This document shows positions 145 through 20,405 of a stretch of DNA of 20,405 nt, piece after piece. Every line of letters begins with the position of its first letter. The stretch's first letter is position 1. The notes beneath the pieces are model-generated. The model was given only the letters and a program-made list of their open reading frames with translations, ran no database searches and was not told the origin of the DNA. Location of the stretch: the NCBI GenBank assembly GCA_037442505.1, contig JBBIPZ010000028.1, positions 1 to 20,405 on the forward strand, in the 5' to 3' direction. Source of the DNA: JBBIPZ01 sp037442505 [NCBI: Deltaproteobacteria bacterium] (GTDB taxonomy: Bacteria > CALINM01). The translations under genes and the position numbers were made by a program.

Positions 145-1176
145 ATGCCCAGAAATAACAGATTTTTAAACGCTTGCAAAAGACTACCTGTCGATTGCAC
201 CCCAGTCTGGATGATGAGACAGGCAGGCAGGTACCTTGAGGAGTATAGAGAAATCAGAAAAAAACATGGTTTTTTGGAAATGTGTAAGACACCAGAACTT
301 GTGGTTGAAGTTACAATTCAGCCTGTCCGCAGATTTGATATTGATGCTGCAATAATCTTCGCTGATATACTGTTGCCATTGGAACACATGGGGATTGATT
401 TTGAATTCACAAAAGGCGAAGGTCCTCACATTAAAAATCCCTTAAGGACATTAGATGATGTCAAAAAAATGCGAGAAATTTATCCAAAAGAACAGATGAC
501 CTACCTTATGGACTCGATAAAAATGGTTCAAAGAGAGCTAAATAGTAAAGTCCCGCTTATTGGTTTTTCTGGCGCTCCTTTTACGCTCGCAAGCTACATT
601 ATTGAAGGTGGTGGTTCTCGAAACTACGAAAACACCAAAACCATGATGTATAAAGAGCCACAAACATGGCATCTTCTTATGGAAAAGTTAACCGATATGG
701 TGGTGGTTTATCTTGAAGCACAGATAGAAGCAGGTGTTCAGGCTGTTCAGGTATTTGATAGCTGGGTAGGTTGTCTTTCACCATTGGATTACGAAGAGTT
801 TGTTTTTCCACACCAGAAAAAACTGTTTGATAAATTGAACAAAACTGTTCCTCACATCCACTTTGCGTTTGGTGCATCTCATCTGGTTAATATTGTTCCT
901 AAGGCAGGTGGCGATGTAATTGGAATCGACTGGAGGATCAACATTGATGAGGCATGGGAAAAGATTGGCTACTACCGCGGCGTTCAGGGCAATCTTGATC
1001 CAGTAGCTCTTTATGGTTCAAAGGAGTATATTGAAAGGCGGATAAAGGATATTCTGAGCAGAGCACAAAATAGAAATGGGCATATATTTAATTTAGGCCA
1101 TGGGATACTCCCAACCACACCTGTTGATAACGCCAAATTTATGATAGATAAGGTTCATGAGTTGAGTGCAAGATGA
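145..1176 (+). CDS. hemE: Uroporphyrinogen decarboxylase
   Basis: HemE removes the four acetate carboxyl groups of uroporphyrinogen III to give coproporphyrinogen III in the cytosol, the branch step committing tetrapyrroles to haem. The 343-residue product has the usual family length. PVWMMRQAGRYL is at residues 20-31 (family signature 1, with substrate-binding Arg25 and Arg29), FADIL holds the catalytic Asp74, GFSGAPFTLASY is signature 2, and FNLGHGI..TTPVDN closes the protein. The open frame runs upstream to base 10, but that part translates to a Phe-rich, unconserved stretch over the promoter. ATG at 145 has AAGGAG six bases upstream and gives the normal N-terminus. The stop overlaps the hemH start by 4 bases (ATGA), so translation is probably coupled. 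Confidence 0.97.
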   Translation: MPRNNRFLNACKRLPVDCTPVWMMRQAGRYLEEYREIRKKHGFLEMCKTPELVVEVTIQPVRRFDIDAAIIFADILLPLEHMGIDFEFTKGEGPHIKNPLRTLDDVKKMREIYPKEQMTYLMDSIKMVQRELNSKVPLIGFSGAPFTLASYIIEGGGSRNYENTKTMMYKEPQTWHLLMEKLTDMVVVYLEAQIEAGVQAVQVFDSWVGCLSPLDYEEFVFPHQKKLFDKLNKTVPHIHFAFGASHLVNIVPKAGGDVIGIDWRINIDEAWEKIGYYRGVQGNLDPVALYGSKEYIERRIKDILSRAQNRNGHIFNLGHGILPTTPVDNAKFMIDKVHELSAR

Positions 1177-2069
1177 AAAAGGCGGTTTTATTAGTAACAC
1201 TTGGCGGTCCCCGAACCTTAGGTGAAGTAAACGACTTTCTTGTTAGATTTATTGGCAGAGAGTTACCACCTCCTGCAGTTCGCTCTGCTATTGAACGATA
1301 TAGGCTTATTGGTGGTGGCTCGCCTTTAAACAGTATCACAGAAAATCAAGCTTTGCTTTTAAATCAGTTGTTGGGTGAAGATTTTTTCTGCCTTCCCACA
1401 TTTAGGTATATGCCGCCTTATATTGAGGATTCCATTGATCTCGCTATGAATTCTGGGGCTTTGCATATTTATTTTTTATCTATGTCTCCATATTACGCAA
1501 CAGTTACCACAGGAAACTATATTGATTGCGCTAAAAGATATATATCCAAACTGGGCGTTGAGATGCCAATCACATATATACACAGCTGGCATGAAAACGA
1601 GTTTTTTTTAAATAGCTGGGCAAATAAGATAAATGATGAAAAGATTGGTGAAGATACCTTTCTGCTTTTTTCTGCCCACAGTTTGCCTGTAAAATATGCT
1701 TCTGACCCTTACAAAACCCAAATTGAGCAGACAGTTGAAAAAATCGTTGAAATGCTTGATATCAAGAACTTTTCTCTGGGATGGCAGAGTGTACCTTCAA
1801 ATGTTTCTGAAGAGTGGTTTTCGCCTTCTGTAGAAGATCGCATCGATTATGCTGTTCAGAAGGGTTTTAAAAAGATTGTTCAAGTCCCTGTCGGTTTCAC
1901 AGCAGATCATATCGAAACTCTTTATGATATAGATATCGTTCACAGGGGGTATGCAGAACAAAAAGGTGTAGAATTTAAGCGAATTTCATCACTTAACACC
2001 AACGACATGTTTATAAAGGCTTTAGAAGACATCATTAGAAATGTAGAAAAAAGAGGTTTAAATGAGTAA
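1173..2069 (+). CDS. hemH: Ferrochelatase
   Basis: HemH inserts Fe(II) into a porphyrin, the last or near-last step of haem synthesis. The 298-residue protein is slightly short but complete for bacterial ferrochelatases. Visible motifs are LVTLGGP (residues 7-13), GGGSPLN (47-53), FSAHSLP with the metal-site His169, and VGFTADHIETLYD with Glu248. In coproporphyrin ferrochelatases of Gram-positives the first motif carries a Tyr (MAYGTP); here that position is Leu (VTLGGP), the form found in protoporphyrin ferrochelatases. That argues for the classical protoporphyrin route, although the operon order resembles Bacillus hemEHY. The gene overlaps hemE by 4 bases and hemY by 8. It has no strong ribosome-binding site, consistent with coupling to hemE. 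Confidence 0.95.
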   Translation: MKKAVLLVTLGGPRTLGEVNDFLVRFIGRELPPPAVRSAIERYRLIGGGSPLNSITENQALLLNQLLGEDFFCLPTFRYMPPYIEDSIDLAMNSGALHIYFLSMSPYYATVTTGNYIDCAKRYISKLGVEMPITYIHSWHENEFFLNSWANKINDEKIGEDTFLLFSAHSLPVKYASDPYKTQIEQTVEKIVEMLDIKNFSLGWQSVPSNVSEEWFSPSVEDRIDYAVQKGFKKIVQVPVGFTADHIETLYDIDIVHRGYAEQKGVEFKRISSLNTNDMFIKALEDIIRNVEKRGLNE

Positions 2070-3450
2070 AGTAGCTATCATTGGCGGGGGCATCTCTGCA
2101 CTTGCATGTGCAGTCACGTTAAAAGAAAAGGGTATCGATTTCAAACTCTTTGAAAAGAATAATACCTTGGGCGGCAAGATCTTAACTGAAAACGTTGACG
2201 GTTTTACCGTTGAGGCAGGTCCGGACAGCTATCTGCCAGAAAAATTTTGGTCAGTTCAATTAATCAAAAAGGTCGGTTTAGAAAAAGAGATGTTGTGCTC
2301 CAACGACGAATATAAAGGAACTTTCATTTACTCAAATGGAAAACTACACCCGTTGCCAGAAGGCGTAATGCTTATGGTGCCAACAATGATTATGCCACTT
2401 GTAAAATCAAGTTTAATCTCCTGGCCTGGGAAAATTAGAATGGGGCTTGAGCTTTTTATATCCCCTAAAAAAGATGATAAAGACGAAAGCCTTGCAGAAT
2501 TTGTAACGAGAAGGCTTGGAAGGGAGTGCCTGGAAAAGATTGCAGAGCCACTTGTTGCCGGCATACATACGTCAAATCCTGATAATATGAGTGTTCTTGC
2601 GACATTTCCTCGATTTGTTGAGATGGAAAAAAAATATGGTAGTCTTATAAAAGGTATGCTTGCTGTATTAAAAAAGATGCCACAAAAGAATGAAAACTCC
2701 CCAAACAAGATGACATATTTTATGTCGCTTAAGAATGGTATGAGGGCACTTGTTGATGGTTGCGTAAACTATACCGGAAAAGATAGTATTTTTACAGGAA
2801 AGGCAGTAAAAGATATCAAAAAAGATGGTGATGAATATCTGCTAATATTTGATAATGGCGAAACTCAAAAGTTTTCTCAAGTTATTTTTGCCACGCCTTC
2901 TTATGTGACAAAAGACATATTGTCTTCTTTAGACAACCAGCTTTCACAAATGTTATCACAAATAGAATGGTCTTCATCCGCTACTGTTTCGTTAGCGTTT
3001 AAAAAAGATGAAGTCAGAGCAAAGCTACCCGGCTTTGGTTTTATCGTCCCCCGCATTGAAAACAAAAGGATAAATGCGTCCACATGGAGTTCAATTAAGT
3101 GGTCATACAGGGCACCAGAAGATTATGTTTTAATAAGAAGTTTTGTGGGTGGTGGACACCACGAAGAGCTTGTTGATTTAAAAGACGAAGAACTGCTCAA
3201 CATAGTTTTAGATGAACTTAAAGATATTGTTAAAATTGAATCAAAGCCAGTGTTTTATAAAGTCTACAGATGGTATAAAGGCATGCCTAAATACACTGTT
3301 GGGCATTTAGAACGGATAAATCGCATTTTTGAATCAATTAAAAAGCATAAAGGGCTTCATCTTATAGGGTGCAGTTATCGTGGAATAGGGATTGGCGATT
3401 GCGTCAAAAGTGGCTTCGATGCCGCCGCTGAAATAGCAAAACAGCTATAG
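2062..3450 (+). CDS. hemY: HemY-type protoporphyrinogen oxidase (FAD)
   Basis: This flavoprotein removes six electrons from protoporphyrinogen IX (or coproporphyrinogen III in the alternative pathway). The 462-residue length is typical. The N-terminus holds the dinucleotide-binding fold VAIIGGGISAL (residues 4-14), then FEKNNTLGGKI and EAGPDSY. The C-terminus has LHLIGCSYRGIGIGDCVKSGFDAA, the second FAD contact. The third glycine of GxGxxG is Ala13 here, a tolerable but unusual change. HemY normally uses O2; in an anaerobe it must pass electrons elsewhere or use traces of oxygen, which the sequence cannot decide. The start has GAGGT about five bases upstream and overlaps hemH by 8 bases. The same family is often labelled hemG in delta-proteobacterial genomes. 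Confidence 0.93.
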   Translation: MSKVAIIGGGISALACAVTLKEKGIDFKLFEKNNTLGGKILTENVDGFTVEAGPDSYLPEKFWSVQLIKKVGLEKEMLCSNDEYKGTFIYSNGKLHPLPEGVMLMVPTMIMPLVKSSLISWPGKIRMGLELFISPKKDDKDESLAEFVTRRLGRECLEKIAEPLVAGIHTSNPDNMSVLATFPRFVEMEKKYGSLIKGMLAVLKKMPQKNENSPNKMTYFMSLKNGMRALVDGCVNYTGKDSIFTGKAVKDIKKDGDEYLLIFDNGETQKFSQVIFATPSYVTKDILSSLDNQLSQMLSQIEWSSSATVSLAFKKDEVRAKLPGFGFIVPRIENKRINASTWSSIKWSYRAPEDYVLIRSFVGGGHHEELVDLKDEELLNIVLDELKDIVKIESKPVFYKVYRWYKGMPKYTVGHLERINRIFESIKKHKGLHLIGCSYRGIGIGDCVKSGFDAAAEIAKQL

Positions 3451-6601: not shown

Positions 6602-7906
6602 TTAAATCTGTTCTGCTATTAAATCATAATCTTGTGCGTCACTAATTTTAAGCGTTACAAAACTACCTTTTGAAGGTGAGCAGTTGGTTACATAAGTTAC
6701 GCCATCAACATCTGGTGCTTGAGAATAAATTCTTCCTGTCCATACAGCACCAAAATCATCAACAGGATATTCTAAAACACCTTTAAACACTTTCCCTACC
6801 AGATTTCGGTTTTTCTCAAATGCTATCTCCGATTGAATAGACATTAATATCCTTTTTCTGTTTTGCTTTATTTTTGAAGTGATTTTTGGCTTTAAACTTT
6901 TTGCAAGCGTATCTTCCTCTGGAGAATACACAAAAACACCAAGATGTTCAAACCTAACTTCCTGTACAAACTCGGCTAATTTGTCAAATTCAACTTCAGT
7001 CTCGGTTGGAAATCCAACAATAAATGACGTTCTCAAAAAGAGAGATGGTATATTTATCCTCAATTTTTCTAATAACGCAAGAATGTCATACTTGCTGTAC
7101 GTTCTGTTCATCAGCTTTAAAATCCTGTCTTCACTATGTTGAAGTGGTATATCAAGGTATTTTACAATCTTTTCTTCTGAGGCAATTATCTTTATTAATT
7201 CATCAGAAATTCTGGTAGGATACAGATAGAGCAGCCTAATCCAGTAATCACCCTTAATTTTTAATAACTCTTTAAGCAATCTTTCCAATGAAGGATTGCC
7301 GTAAATATCGGCACCATAAGCAGTTATGTCCTGAGCTATCAGATTAATTTCTTTTACTCCCTCTTTAAGTTTTTCCCGAACTTCTGTGACAATATCGTCA
7401 ATTTGTCTGCTTTTTAGAGTGCCTCTTATAATTGGAATAGCACAATAAGAGCAAAAGTTTTTACAACCATCAGCGATTTTCACATATGCATAACTTTCCG
7501 GTGTGAAGAGTATTTTGGAGTCTGGTTTTTTTACAGCAATTTTTGTTGAGGGAAATTCAGAAGCTATTTTTTCCGCAAGCTCTTCGTATGGCATTACAGG
7601 CAGAAATAAGTGAACTTCTGGCAATGCATTGCGCAACTCATTCAGGTATCTTTGCACCATACAACCAAATACTACAACCCTGGTTGATTTAGACTTCTCT
7701 TCAACTGCCCCAAGTATTGTCTGTATAGACTCTTTCTTAGCTTCTTGAATGAAACCACATGTGTTAATTATTATAACAGCGGCTTGTCTTAAATTGTCGG
7801 TAAGGTAAAAACCTCTTTTTGCGAGGGCGTTACTTAGCTTTTCGCTCTCAACAAGGTTTTTAGCACACCCCAAACTGATTAAATAAAAGCTGTTCTTTTT
7901 AATCAT
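6602..7906 (-). CDS. rimO: Ribosomal protein S12 methylthiotransferase RimO
   Basis: RimO is a radical-SAM enzyme that adds a methylthio group to the conserved aspartate of ribosomal protein S12. The 434-residue chain has the full family layout: an N-terminal UPF0004 domain with auxiliary-cluster cysteines Cys14 (SLGCAKN), Cys50 (NTCGFI) and Cys82 (FGCMVQ), then the radical-SAM motif CKNFCSYC (Cys148, Cys152, Cys155), and a C-terminal TRAM domain containing QAPDVDGV. SLGCAKNLVESE and QAPDVDGV favour RimO over the related tRNA enzyme MiaB. Its ATG overlaps the lolA stop by 4 bases (ATGA). It is the last gene of a long minus-strand run and ends tail-to-tail with the ABC operon with no room for a terminator between them. 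Confidence 0.95.
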   Translation of the reverse strand: MIKKNSFYLISLGCAKNLVESEKLSNALAKRGFYLTDNLRQAAVIIINTCGFIQEAKKESIQTILGAVEEKSKSTRVVVFGCMVQRYLNELRNALPEVHLFLPVMPYEELAEKIASEFPSTKIAVKKPDSKILFTPESYAYVKIADGCKNFCSYCAIPIIRGTLKSRQIDDIVTEVREKLKEGVKEINLIAQDITAYGADIYGNPSLERLLKELLKIKGDYWIRLLYLYPTRISDELIKIIASEEKIVKYLDIPLQHSEDRILKLMNRTYSKYDILALLEKLRINIPSLFLRTSFIVGFPTETEVEFDKLAEFVQEVRFEHLGVFVYSPEEDTLAKSLKPKITSKIKQNRKRILMSIQSEIAFEKNRNLVGKVFKGVLEYPVDDFGAVWTGRIYSQAPDVDGVTYVTNCSPSKGSFVTLKISDAQDYDLIAEQI

Positions 7907-16109: not shown

Positions 16110-17780
16110 TTATCTATTTTTTATTATCATCTCGTAATTTCTTCGGATATTTTCTTGATATGGCGATATTTTATAAGCCTCCTCAAAACACCTTTCAGCA
16201 TTATTTGAGTCCCCAGTATTTAAATAAATTATTCCCAAATTATTAAGTATATCAGCCCGTTCAAAACTGTTTTCGTTTGATAGTGCGTAAGCCTTTTCGT
16301 AAAGCTTCTTTGCCTTAACAATATCACCTATCTCTTGTTTTAATACGCCTAGATTATACAAAACAGAGACATTTTTGTCATCAAACTCTAAATAATTTTC
16401 TAACAACATCACTGCACCATTCAAATCGCCTTTAAGTTTGTATATGTAACTAAGATTGAGGTATGATTGTGCATATGGTTTGGAAGCCATTTTTAATGAT
16501 AACAACAACTCTTTTTCTGCTTCATCTATACGGTTTGCCATAAGATACGAGCTCCCAAGATTTGACCTTTCAATATATGATTCAGGAAACTCATTTACTC
16601 TTTGCAATGCGTTTGATAGATCATCATGCCAGATATTACACCTTATGTTGGAGAACACAGAAAAAAACACCACAAACAAACATAACATAACTGTGGTCAT
16701 AGCTTTGAATTTGTTGTAAATAGGTTTAAAAACTTCGGATACAAATAACAAAAATGCCATCAAAGGAATAAAAAGATATCTGTCAGAGATTAGAGACTTA
16801 TGAACAAGCGTGATTATTCCTGAAGATGGTAGTAAAGAAAGTATAAAGGTGGCCCCACCAAATAAAGCGATCTTGTTTTGTCTGACAATAATGATACAGG
16901 CTATTACTAACAAAAACACCAATATCGAAAGCACTACCTGTATATTAATCTGTGAGACAGCCTTTAAGTCATAATAATGCACCCGCAGCGCAAATGGATT
17001 GAATATTATTTTCAAATATTCTTTTACAATCAGAAACATACTGTAAAATCGTTCCGAAAATGGATAACTTTCGCCAGCAAATTTCTTTAAAAACAATAAT
17101 CTAAGGGTAAAATATATAATCAATACAAAAAGTGTGCTTAAAGCTATATTGCGTGTCAGCCTTTTATTAGCCTCTTTTCTAACAAGATATATATAGCCAG
17201 ATAGCCAGAAGATACTCACAATAAATATTTCGTGAAAAAATAATCCCATTAGTAAAATCACTGGTATAAAAATTAGTAGTATGTTTTTGGCTTCAATGTA
17301 ATGTTTTACTGATTTAATTAGCAGAAGCAGCAAAATTGCAATTATTAACTGGTTTCTTGCAGATACCCAACAAACAGGCTCTACATTAACGGGATGGATA
17401 GCAAAGATAGATGCAAAAAGTAAATTATAAAGTGGTTCATTCTTTCGGACATCGTTCAAAAAACTGTAAAACATTAAAACAGCAATAATGTGGAATGTAA
17501 GATTAGCAAGATGATACAAAAAGTAGCTATCTTTGAAGATATTAAAAGTTAAAAGAAAATAGATGGTGTCCAGTGGTCTGTAATAATTTTGATTTATAAA
17601 CTGAGGTGTAGAAAAAATTTTATCTAAATCAGATAATGAAACAACTCTGGCTGTGCCGTAAAAGTTTGAAAAATCGTCGGTAACAAAACCAAAAGTAAGA
17701 GACTTTCCGTAAACAAGTATGATTAAGATACACAGAACTGCAAAATAAACAAATCGCCTATTATTGTTTTCAATCACCAT
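16110..17780 (-). CDS. TMTC-like membrane glycosyltransferase (GT-C) with C-terminal TPRs
   Basis: A 556-residue protein with about ten to eleven membrane helices in residues 10-380 and four tetratricopeptide repeats in 402-541 (for example LYNLGVLKQEIGDIVKAKKLYEKAYAL at about 474). The first periplasmic loop holds the Asp-Asp pair of GT-C transferases (FVTDDFSNF, Asp35-Asp36). HPVNVEPVCWVSARNQL (129-145) and LISDRYLFIPL (330-340) match the pattern of TMTC-type O-mannosyltransferase relatives. It is likely to transfer sugar from a lipid-linked donor to an exported protein, with the TPRs binding the target. Donor and acceptor are unknown. The ATG has AAGGAT about eight bases upstream. It heads a three-gene group with the rhodanese and VCBS proteins, downstream of the cytochrome genes. 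Confidence 0.8.
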   Translation of the reverse strand: MVIENNNRRFVYFAVLCILIILVYGKSLTFGFVTDDFSNFYGTARVVSLSDLDKIFSTPQFINQNYYRPLDTIYFLLTFNIFKDSYFLYHLANLTFHIIAVLMFYSFLNDVRKNEPLYNLLFASIFAIHPVNVEPVCWVSARNQLIIAILLLLLIKSVKHYIEAKNILLIFIPVILLMGLFFHEIFIVSIFWLSGYIYLVRKEANKRLTRNIALSTLFVLIIYFTLRLLFLKKFAGESYPFSERFYSMFLIVKEYLKIIFNPFALRVHYYDLKAVSQINIQVVLSILVFLLVIACIIIVRQNKIALFGGATFILSLLPSSGIITLVHKSLISDRYLFIPLMAFLLFVSEVFKPIYNKFKAMTTVMLCLFVVFFSVFSNIRCNIWHDDLSNALQRVNEFPESYIERSNLGSSYLMANRIDEAEKELLLSLKMASKPYAQSYLNLSYIYKLKGDLNGAVMLLENYLEFDDKNVSVLYNLGVLKQEIGDIVKAKKLYEKAYALSNENSFERADILNNLGIIYLNTGDSNNAERCFEEAYKISPYQENIRRNYEMIIKNR

Positions 17781-17988: not shown

Positions 17989-18021
17989 AAAAAAAGCGTG
18001 CTTTTAATGCACGCTTTTTTT
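17989..18021 (-). terminator. Strong bidirectional intrinsic terminator
   Basis: The stem GCGTGC (17996-18001) pairs with GCACGC (18009-18014) around a seven-base loop. It is extended by seven A (17989-17995) facing seven T (18015-18021), so there is a T-run on either strand. It closes the cytochrome-peptide transcript 28 bases after the peptide stop. Confidence 0.93.
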
Positions 18022-18049: not shown

Positions 18050-18106
18050 TTAACAAGGGTGAACTGAACTTGTTCCTAATGCTTTTGGTTTAATGTAACT
18101 TTTCAT
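18050..18106 (-). CDS. 18-residue peptide gene downstream of the multiheme cytochrome
   Basis: The predicted product is MKSYIKPKALGTSSVHPC, 18 codons plus TAA. The evidence for translation is a full-length Shine-Dalgarno AAAGGAGGT (18123-18115) spaced eight bases from ATG, the best ribosome-binding site in the window. The gene starts 32 bases after the cytochrome stop and ends just before a strong terminator, so it is the distal gene of that transcript. The N-terminus (KxYxKPxxLG) resembles leader segments bound by PqqD-like RRE domains in ribosomally made, modified peptides (lasso-type leaders have YxxPxL...G), and it ends in a single Cys. There is no signal peptide or membrane helix. Function is unknown. 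A RiPP precursor, a tag-like cytochrome partner or a regulatory leader peptide are possible; the first is my preferred inference. Too short for standard gene prediction. Confidence 0.7.
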   Translation of the reverse strand: MKSYIKPKALGTSSVHPC

Positions 18107-18114
18107 AATCTGTT

Positions 18115-18123
18115 ACCTCCTTT
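18115..18123 (-). promoter_or_regulatory. Perfect ribosome-binding site of the 18-residue peptide gene
   Basis: AAAGGAGGT on the minus strand, fully complementary to the usual 16S rRNA 3' end, eight bases before the ATG at 18106. No other gene here has so complete a site, which is the main reason to accept the tiny reading frame. Confidence 0.8.
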
Positions 18124-18138
18124 ATACTTTTATCTATT

Positions 18139-20405
18139 TTACTGCCATGGAGTTATATCGTTCCACCTTGTCTGGTATGTATTATTTGTCACCAATGGGC
18201 TGTTGTGACAACGCACAGCTGTTGCTGGATTTACTTTAGTTTGGTTATTGTTATTAGCTGTTGGTGAAAAACGGCCTGCTATCATCATATTATTTGCATT
18301 TTCAGAATGTTTTAGACGCCACAACGTGTTTTGGTTATTCCAGTTATTTGCCTGATCTTTCGATTGCCAGACATCTAAACAGTTGGTCTTTAAAAGTCTG
18401 GGTAGCCTTGCCTGATGTGGCGTATGACATTTGGAACACGGGAAGTTGTGATACCCAACCTGTATATTTGTACTGGCACCTGTCTCTCTTACCTGTTTAT
18501 TATAGTCTAAGCCCCAGCTAAAACCAGTTCCTGGCACATAAGTACCACCAGCTAAAATCATCCTAAAACCTTGAGTTCCCGCAAAAAATAATCCCTGCGG
18601 TGCTAATGCAAGGTTGTTAGTATTGTTAAAAGCATTAGTTATATTAGCAACCCCTGACTTTCTGTTGATATAGTAATTGGGCACAACATCAGCTGCCCTA
18701 CCACTATCAACAGAGCTATACACACCCCAGCCTTTAACCGTTCTGTGAGCCCTTGTCTGGAAATTTTTGGTTCTTGTATTGTGCGAAGAACGTGTCCCTA
18801 GTAACTTGGTTTTTGGATGACAGCTAAGACAGAGCCCCCCAAACTGGGTGTCACTCTCGACAATTTTATTTATCGTGACACTTCCAGTTGTTCTAAAAGC
18901 AACACTTCCACCATTACCCGTTTTCCAAAATAAACTCATCACAGTATTTATGTTGTTATTGCTAAACAAATCTATATTTGCTGTACCGTTATTAATATAA
19001 ACTCCAAAAGTATTGTCATCAATATAAAAACCAGATGCACCGTTATTGGTAGTCTTGCCATAGCCATTTCCTATCCATGGAGAACGATTAAGTAGCTTAT
19101 GAGGAGAAAACCTTGGTGCACCTCTCTGGTTGGTAATCGAATTATTGCCGTTTAAGTTAATTGCAAAATAGCTTGCAGTAGCATTATACTTTTCTCCTGG
19201 TCTATCTTCATAATATAGTGCTGTTAGATGCATTCCCTTTAACTGAGGTGAGTAGTATCTGATATTGGCAAGTTTTGGACTATTAGCCATTGAGTTTACT
19301 CCGTGTGGGTCATGACAGTATGTGCACATTCCACGTAAACCCATACCACCGCCTAAAAAATTACTATTTGTGTTACCAGAGTTGGCGCTGTCCCTCCAGT
19401 TAAGTGGAGTAAAGCCAGTTACATTGTTACCTAAATGTTTCTGGAAGTGTGTACCGATTATTGTCCCTCTTTTATACAGAAACTCTCCTACCCAAAATGC
19501 AGGACTGTTATTGTTCGTTGTATTGGAATAGCCACTATTTGAGTTATCTATATACCATCTGCCTTTGCCGTGAATAGTCTGTCTATTTGTTGCTGCCTGT
19601 TCATAATTTATAGCATCGTAATAACCTGCTACGATATTGCCTTTACTCCTACCATACTGCATATAGTTTCTTGGCATACTCGTTGTTGCTGTACCAACAC
19701 CACCTGTTGTGGTATCTTCACCTAAATGACAGTCAAAACAAAGTGCAGCCTGTGCCGACCAGATAGCTGATCTACCACTATTAGCACCACCCAAGTTATT
19801 CACATAGTAGGCTTCTGTAGGAGTATAATTAGCAGCTACATATCCATTGTATGGCACATTATTTCTATAACCATGTAGATTTGTCCATACCTGTTTTAAA
19901 ATTGCCCCCTTATATTTTCCTGTAGCAGAACTATACGAGCTAAAGCCAAACTGACCAAATGGTAAGTTGGAGCCATGTGAATTGTGGCAATCAAGACAAG
20001 CAACACTCCCCGCATTGGTCGATGTATAGGTACCTGCTGCAGGCTCTGATGCGTCATTAGCCCACGTGGCATTGACCATAACGCCTCTTTGATGTTTCTG
20101 CATATAATAATGTGAACTTGAAGTCTTTATCTTTTGTGGAACTACATTGTAAGTAGCTGGATTGTAAAGATGCGAAGTATAGCTTTTAAAAGTCATAAAT
20201 CTTGCATAGATTGAACTACCGTCCCATGAATATTGATTGGGCGTCTTACCATCACCGAATGGCTGATTAACCTTTCCATTTTCGTTATGACAACTAAGGC
20301 AATGTGTGTTTGCCCCTGCTTGCGATAACGTTGATAATGGTTTGAATATCGTCCTTGTGTTTGTGTTTGAAGTAGTTGGTCTTGCGTTATTGGCTATATC
20401 AAAGA
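18139..20405 (-). CDS. Large multiheme c-type cytochrome (3' part; 5' end outside window)
   Basis: The frame stays open to the window edge, giving at least 754 residues; the first internal Met (20196) is not the true start. Six CxxCH haem-attachment motifs are visible: CLSCH (20301-20287), CLDCH (19998-19984), CFDCH (19740-19726), CTYCH (19326-19312), CLSCH (18831-18817) and CSKCH (18438-18424). Several are followed by HxxH or PHG-type contexts supplying distal His ligands. The spacer regions are Asn-, Thr- and Gly-rich, typical of exported or surface cytochromes. Near the end, FPCSKCHTPHQARLPRLLKTNCLDVW and a last lone VRCHN resemble a conserved C-terminal arrangement of cytochromes from metal-reducing Geobacter-like bacteria. 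The likely role is periplasmic or extracellular electron transfer; partner and location are not shown by this fragment. The 18-residue peptide gene follows. Confidence 0.9.
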   Translation of the reverse strand, partial: FDIANNARPTTSNTNTRTIFKPLSTLSQAGANTHCLSCHNENGKVNQPFGDGKTPNQYSWDGSSIYARFMTFKSYTSHLYNPATYNVVPQKIKTSSSHYYMQKHQRGVMVNATWANDASEPAAGTYTSTNAGSVACLDCHNSHGSNLPFGQFGFSSYSSATGKYKGAILKQVWTNLHGYRNNVPYNGYVAANYTPTEAYYVNNLGGANSGRSAIWSAQAALCFDCHLGEDTTTGGVGTATTSMPRNYMQYGRSKGNIVAGYYDAINYEQAATNRQTIHGKGRWYIDNSNSGYSNTTNNNSPAFWVGEFLYKRGTIIGTHFQKHLGNNVTGFTPLNWRDSANSGNTNSNFLGGGMGLRGMCTYCHDPHGVNSMANSPKLANIRYYSPQLKGMHLTALYYEDRPGEKYNATASYFAINLNGNNSITNQRGAPRFSPHKLLNRSPWIGNGYGKTTNNGASGFYIDDNTFGVYINNGTANIDLFSNNNINTVMSLFWKTGNGGSVAFRTTGSVTINKIVESDTQFGGLCLSCHPKTKLLGTRSSHNTRTKNFQTRAHRTVKGWGVYSSVDSGRAADVVPNYYINRKSGVANITNAFNNTNNLALAPQGLFFAGTQGFRMILAGGTYVPGTGFSWGLDYNKQVRETGASTNIQVGYHNFPCSKCHTPHQARLPRLLKTNCLDVWQSKDQANNWNNQNTLWRLKHSENANNMMIAGRFSPTANNNNQTKVNPATAVRCHNSPLVTNNTYQTRWNDITPWQ

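Follow-up and report, generated by a model that had tools for sequence, protein, structure and literature searches.

The 18-residue reading frame that lies behind a multihaem c-type cytochrome gene in the stretch of DNA analysed here (20,405 nt, referred to as the window) is a real, unannotated gene, and to judge from comparison with its relatives it belongs to a peptide family that is under protein-level selection. The peptide is likely the missing substrate of the orphan GeoRSP system and probably also a partner of haem proteins of very large size; taken jointly, it is quite probable that it is a precursor matured by GeoRSP and linked to giant multihaem cytochromes. In this way an orphan radical SAM/SPASM system gains a candidate substrate, and a peptide modification would be tied to giant multihaem cytochromes. 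Genes of this kind are so short that gene callers likely overlook them. A defined substrate of 18-20 residues, together with an enzyme and a protein partner, makes direct tests possible.

The peptide gene and its flanking signals

The features of the window that bear on the peptide are the following:

18050..18106, minus strand: peptide gene MKSYIKPKALGTSSVHPC-TAA, 18 residues, member of the VHPC peptide family (translation and family alignment)
18115..18123, minus strand: Shine-Dalgarno sequence AAAGGAGGT, with a gap of 8 nt to the ATG (exact-motif search)
17989..18021, minus strand: terminator-like hairpin AAAAAAAGCGTGC-loop-GCACGCTTTTTTT, 28 nt past the peptide stop (sequence and fold)
18139..20405, minus strand: gene of a multihaem c-type cytochrome, Paired_CXXCH_1, visible part with 6 CXXCH, 5' end past the window
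18145..18495, minus strand: C-terminal domain of this cytochrome, CSKCHTPHQARLPRLLKTNCLD ... CH ... WNDITPW, common to the peptide-linked cytochromes of relatives

An earlier note on this DNA had described an ATG frame of 18 codons with a Shine-Dalgarno site and a TAA stop, offset by 32 nt from the cytochrome stop codon, and translation and coordinates bear this out. It had also assigned the peptide to a cytochrome operon; the distance of 32 nt between the cytochrome stop and the peptide ATG stands, but the operon itself has to be inferred, because the cytochrome gene is truncated by the window edge. The argument that the ribosome-binding site is too good to be idle gains little from the motif alone, since AAAGGAGGT has a single exact copy within the window but at least one copy in 24 of 100 shuffled windows, which makes the site by itself weak evidence; it is better supported at the level of the family, in which 70 of 84 loci have a Shine-Dalgarno match of at least 5 nt vs 3.5% of 4530 control ATGs (the choice of starts favoured good Shine-Dalgarno sites). 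Likewise, the strong terminator proposed to follow the peptide is represented by a hairpin, the fold of this region (161 nt) having z = -3.09 with none of 200 shuffles equally stable, but the hairpin at 17989-18021 is missing from the list of the consensus terminator scan.

No RNA element was detected in the whole window by Rfam at gathering score, and neither the window peptide nor three relatives matched a model of NCBIfam or Pfam, a comparison in which filters may lose such short queries. The gene that adjoins the peptide (16110-17780, minus strand) encodes a membrane-type protein with C-terminal TPR repeats. Consecutive genes at 145-3450 were read as hemE, hemH and protoporphyrinogen oxidase, and a RimO-like gene (6602-7906) is the only one in the window read as radical SAM.

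Conservation of the peptide family

A query with HemE brought up 80 loci in other genomes. The spread of the peptide was followed in two samples, namely the phylum of genome G001, which holds the Syntrophaceae record L001 (395 genomes), and the phylum of genome G002, which holds the Nitrospirota record L004 (217 genomes); the sampled genomes are often in many contigs and a single absence may correspond to a gap. Homologues ending in HPC-stop were found in 28 of the 395 genomes of the first sample and 14 of the 217 genomes of the second, often several per genome. The 18-mer used as protein query at E <= 1 gave tblastn matches in 32 first-sample genomes, at most six in any one of them, and the number of 28 results from removing the weak matches of G144, G222, G336 and G379, which are not peptides once translated or rescored. 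A model built from 45 aligned members (A1; L101:2119 was omitted from 46 distinct peptides) matched 14 of the 217 second-sample genomes at E <= 1.2e-5, the next value being 0.029, and rescoring of 89 first-sample genomes with it produced 7 positives, each already known. With the same model, none of 149 genomes from the phylum of an Acidobacteria record had the peptide.

The family consensus is M-K-K-x-x-Y-x-K-P-[KR]-V-V-G-[ST]-[SA]-x-V-H-P-C-stop. Invariant positions in A1 are M1, P7, V15, H16, P17 and C18, of which P7, H16, P17 and C18 were fixed by the picking pattern itself, and the C-terminus reads VHPC in 45/45 A1 members and VHPC or IHPC in 14/14 true members of the second sample. Comparisons at locus level were based on 84 peptide loci (window included) chosen by P-x8-HPC-stop, so that Cys-stop is fixed by this choice; the set omits L169, which lies inside L271, and a frame of L176 without a start codon. 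Among the unfiltered translated matches (20, 20 and 15 loci), those that do not end in HPC-stop have E values of at least 0.24 in the first sample or of 0.029 in the second.

In 76 distinct cores of 15 codons, pN/pS amounts to 0.31, and to 0.42 with the four member-picking codons excluded, vs 0.98 in the 45 nt past the stop, and all four Pro codons are in use at the invariant Pro across the family. As seen in the 45-member alignment and in pN/pS, the peptides share the make-up of RiPP precursors, a short conserved frame with a leader-like part and an invariant core part. The earlier note had named a lack of conservation of the peptide or of its ribosome-binding site among the findings that would speak against its reading; both are conserved in the relatives, and this check did not refute it.

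Co-occurrence with the GeoRSP maturase

In locus L119 the peptide gene lies right behind a gene for a radical SAM protein that scores 406.8 bits to TIGR04303 (GeoRSP radical SAM/SPASM; cut-off 400). When the top five candidates per genome were scored against this model, 26 of the 395 first-sample genomes reached at least 379.8 bits (20 of them above the cut-off of 400), the next value being 192.8. Peptide and GeoRSP occur together in 25 of these genomes, the peptide alone in 3, GeoRSP alone in 1 and neither in 366 (Fisher p = 3.5e-35, kinship ignored). The second sample agrees, with both in 11 genomes (all above cut-off), the peptide alone in 3, GeoRSP alone in none and neither in 203 (Fisher p = 3.7e-16, kinship ignored). 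The peptide is thus present in 25/26 and 11/11 GeoRSP genomes, 36/37 together, G178 being the genome with GeoRSP in which the peptide was not detected. Conversely, 36 of the 42 peptide genomes carry TIGR04303, a count that refers to relatives; by extension, a GeoRSP system may be expected in the window's own genome too. The six peptide genomes without a strong GeoRSP match are G202, G249, G365, G418, G454 and G476; none of them has a GeoRSP SPASM gene above cut-off, and in G418 and G454, where one stretch each was looked at more closely, the radical SAM/SPASM genes were of other kinds and a GeoRSP cluster was not found.

The association is also one of position, as the peptide gene lies at most 175 nt behind the maturase gene in 12 of the 37 GeoRSP regions and occurs anywhere in the fetched region in 20. 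A PqqD homologue was detected by tblastn in 37/37 of these regions; the PqqD protein of L119 scores 55 bits to Pfam PqqD and 60.9 bits to TIGR04302, below the cut-off of 100. The proposals that the peptide is the substrate of a radical SAM/SPASM enzyme and that a PqqD-like protein is involved, both made from the window alone, therefore find support in the relatives.

Further contents of the GeoRSP regions include a GeoRSP_SPASM protein (TIGR04304; 339.4 bits in L189, cut-off 300), a SPASM protein being found by tblastn in 36/37 regions, a count to which the maturase's own SPASM domain may have contributed. The same searches gave YedE-type transporters and phosphonate-type binding proteins in 29/37 regions each, NosD-like beta-helix proteins in 32/37 and NicO in 8/37. 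ResB-like proteins (cytochrome c biogenesis) are encoded at L189:15546-16469 and, according to tblastn, in 10 more regions (11/37), which would fit an unusual attachment of haem.

Linkage to multihaem cytochromes

Away from the maturase, the peptide gene is often the last one in an operon of giant multihaem cytochromes. The earlier note had also considered the peptide as a small partner of the cytochrome and had suggested searching downstream of homologous cytochrome genes for frames ending in VHPC. Such frames were found in 16 relatives besides the window, and it is this position that supports the partnership: 17 of the 84 peptide loci start no more than 250 nt behind a frame that has at least four CXXCH. 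A frame of this kind lies within 6 kb upstream on the same strand in 13 more loci, downstream in 6 and on the other strand in 2, while 9 loci are placed behind GeoRSP and 37 in none of these classes. Three of the latter (L178, L179 and L184) are actually behind GeoRSP, the maturase having been missed by gene calling, which leaves 34/84 loci that lack both a cytochrome within 6 kb and an adjacent GeoRSP gene, some of them cut by contig or fetch ends; in L180:826 and L243, also among the 37, part of a cut WNxxTPW cytochrome frame, its end, can still be seen. A cytochrome scan of genome contigs returned 35 stretches and no confirmed relative, and comparison of the window cytochrome with solved structures gave a single match (E 0.033).

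Other neighbours of the peptide were observed as well. Big Ig-like-domain proteins with a C-terminal biotinyl/lipoyl-like domain are encoded just 5' of the peptide in L103, L173, L177 and L181, those of L103 and L177 standing after WNxxTPW-type cytochromes. In L160, L163, L164 and L114 the peptide gene immediately precedes that of an approximately 510-residue protein, with FG-GAP/UnbV_ASPIC in L160 and L114.

Many of the peptide-linked giant multihaem cytochromes share a C-terminal domain with the pattern CxKCHxxH...NC...CH...WNxx[TS]PW, which the window cytochrome has as well. In an alignment of 23 of 25 segments (A2; L253 and L155:12437 omitted), the invariant residues are, in window-domain numbering, C20, K22, C23, H24, H27, P32, L34, N38, C39, C96, H97, W111, N112, P116 and W117. 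Two invariant Cys, that of NC and that of a lone CH some 20-75 residues further on, have no CXXCH partner in the domain, and this NC...CH pair may be a haem motif of the type C-x(n)-CH with a very long spacing. The end motif WNxx[TS][PQ]W occurs in the last 60 residues of 20 of the 38 frames with at least four CXXCH that have a peptide at most 7.5 kb downstream, and further in for 4 more; in other such frames of the regions it was found at the end of 1 of 10, plus 1 inside.

The A2 domain was detected in 22 of the 395 first-sample genomes, and all 22 are within the 29 that have the peptide and/or GeoRSP, a figure to be read with a model tuned to peptide-linked loci, as the A2 members come from them. 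The domain is carried both by G178, which has GeoRSP without the peptide, and by G202, in which the reverse is the case, and was absent from 7 of the 28 peptide genomes, five of these seven having GeoRSP; since the best 11 of up to 119 candidates per genome were scored, such absences are no proof. Among 99 second-sample genomes the domain is present in 9, of which 8 have the peptide and 5 GeoRSP, and it was absent from 3 of 11 peptide genomes (G427, G435 and G442). The domain genomes without GeoRSP in this sample are G418, G454, G457 and G476 (4/9), and G457 is also without the peptide. In G457 (L290) a domain cytochrome ending in WNAVTGW is followed by a protein of 807 residues and no peptide, a natural exception.

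A model for peptide maturation and its alternatives

Based on these data, a model can be proposed in which the gene would give rise to a very short RiPP-type precursor peptide. Its first half, M-K-(K)-x-Y-x-[KA]-P-[KR], would act as the leader bound by the PqqD-type chaperone. The C-terminal V-H-P-C-COOH would be the core that the radical SAM/SPASM enzyme of GeoRSP modifies, with the terminal Cys as the most likely site. Once matured, the peptide would serve giant multihaem cytochromes, many of them with the specific C-terminal domain. The mycofactocin enzyme works on a peptide C-terminus and AhbD on haem side chains; by analogy with such relatives of the maturase by score, an oxidative decarboxylation or a Cys-centred link appears plausible. 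Production of each precursor beside its own cytochrome would account for the several paralogous copies per genome, and the dispersed copies next to cytochromes suggest a supply in step with each of them. As a tentative and rather doubtful extension, the matured peptide may serve giant cytochromes as a gene-encoded ligand or prosthetic group, whose modified His-Pro-Cys would bind or join the domain with two unpaired Cys, for example by completing an unusual two-chain haem site.

Other explanations share part of this evidence. The peptide may be processed into a small diffusible redox cofactor, similar to PQQ or mycofactocin, with the cytochromes as electron partners and not carriers. The best NCBIfam matches of the L119 maturase after GeoRSP are in line with this (mycofactocin radical SAM, 195 bits; PqqE, 114), yet a genome can hold as many as six tblastn matches, many in separate cytochrome neighbourhoods, which exceeds the need for one precursor, and the dispersed copies speak more for a peptide that acts on the cytochrome or together with it than for a single diffusible cofactor, which is thus regarded as a minority possibility. 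It is somewhat less probable that maturation yields a ligand for metal, sulfur or selenium, produced and handled by the GeoRSP cluster, and that the cytochrome link is secondary, e.g., due to co-regulation: the YedE-type, phosphonate-type binding, NosD-like and NicO genes of the GeoRSP regions and a C-terminal His and Cys able to bind metals would agree with such a role, which leaves the association with the cytochrome domain (22/22) and the dispersed copies unexplained. Both explanations overlap in the GeoRSP-precursor part with the preferred one, whose stated confidence covers the joint claim, so that the probabilities assigned here do not add up to one.

A small unmodified peptide that serves the cytochrome in its structure or assembly, with some other cause for the co-occurrence with GeoRSP, would be consistent with the direct cytochrome linkage and the strong ribosome-binding site; such a role is very unlikely, considering the 12/37 GeoRSP regions in which the peptide follows the maturase and no frame with at least four CXXCH lies within 6 kb in the fetched stretch. 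Finally, the recurrence of the ribosome-binding motif in shuffled windows and the terminator-like hairpin that comes next could be taken as signs of a chance short frame, or of a leader or attenuator without peptide function. Conservation at the protein level in two of the sampled phyla, a pN/pS of 0.31-0.42, the use of all four Pro codons at the invariant Pro and the position behind a cytochrome gene make this extremely improbable. The reading of the peptide as a GeoRSP-matured precursor linked to giant multihaem cytochromes is therefore preferred.

Comparison with known systems

Several known peptide systems resemble the present one in part. Sactipeptides, ranthipeptides and SCIFF involve SPASM radical enzymes acting on Cys, whereas the window peptide has a single Cys, located at its extreme C-terminus. 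PQQ biosynthesis (PqqA/PqqD/PqqE) is alike in employing a PqqD family protein (Pfam) and a radical SAM/SPASM enzyme. PqqA uses Glu and Tyr; in contrast, the window peptide contains no Glu and hence not this pair, and the one maturase compared, that of L119, stays at 114 bits to PqqE (cut-off 381).

The C-terminus of MftA, the mycofactocin precursor, is Val-Tyr, while the present family ends in VHPC or IHPC and its precursor is multicopy and dispersed. The L119 maturase, again the one tested, reaches 195.3 bits to TIGR03962, short of the cut-off of 265. The likeness to mycofactocin consists in a short peptide with an invariant C-terminus, a small chaperone and a SPASM radical enzyme, and mycofactocin partner enzymes often have several paralogues per genome (cf. 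PMC3023750).

Selenobiotic (SbtA/SbtM) or selenocysteine peptides are brought to mind by the many members that end in TGC-TGA and by the YedE 'selenium' transporter homologue of 29/37 GeoRSP regions. A Cys-Sec reading of TGC-TGA was rejected: the stop codons of the 84 loci are TGA in 59, TAA in 22 and TAG in 3, so that, in contrast to selenopeptides, 25/84 loci (window included) have TAA or TAG at that site and Cys is terminal in at least these 25. The simplest reading of TGA is as a stop, and selenocysteine is not general in the family.

Regarding GeoRSP itself, a search of mainly open-access literature found no paper naming it as a system or naming TIGR04303, and none on this peptide among the matches listed. 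The peptide is linked to this set of families, the radical SAM/SPASM enzyme TIGR04303, the PqqD family TIGR04302 and the SPASM protein TIGR04304, through its presence in 36/37 of the GeoRSP genomes and its position right behind the maturase in 12/37 of the regions.
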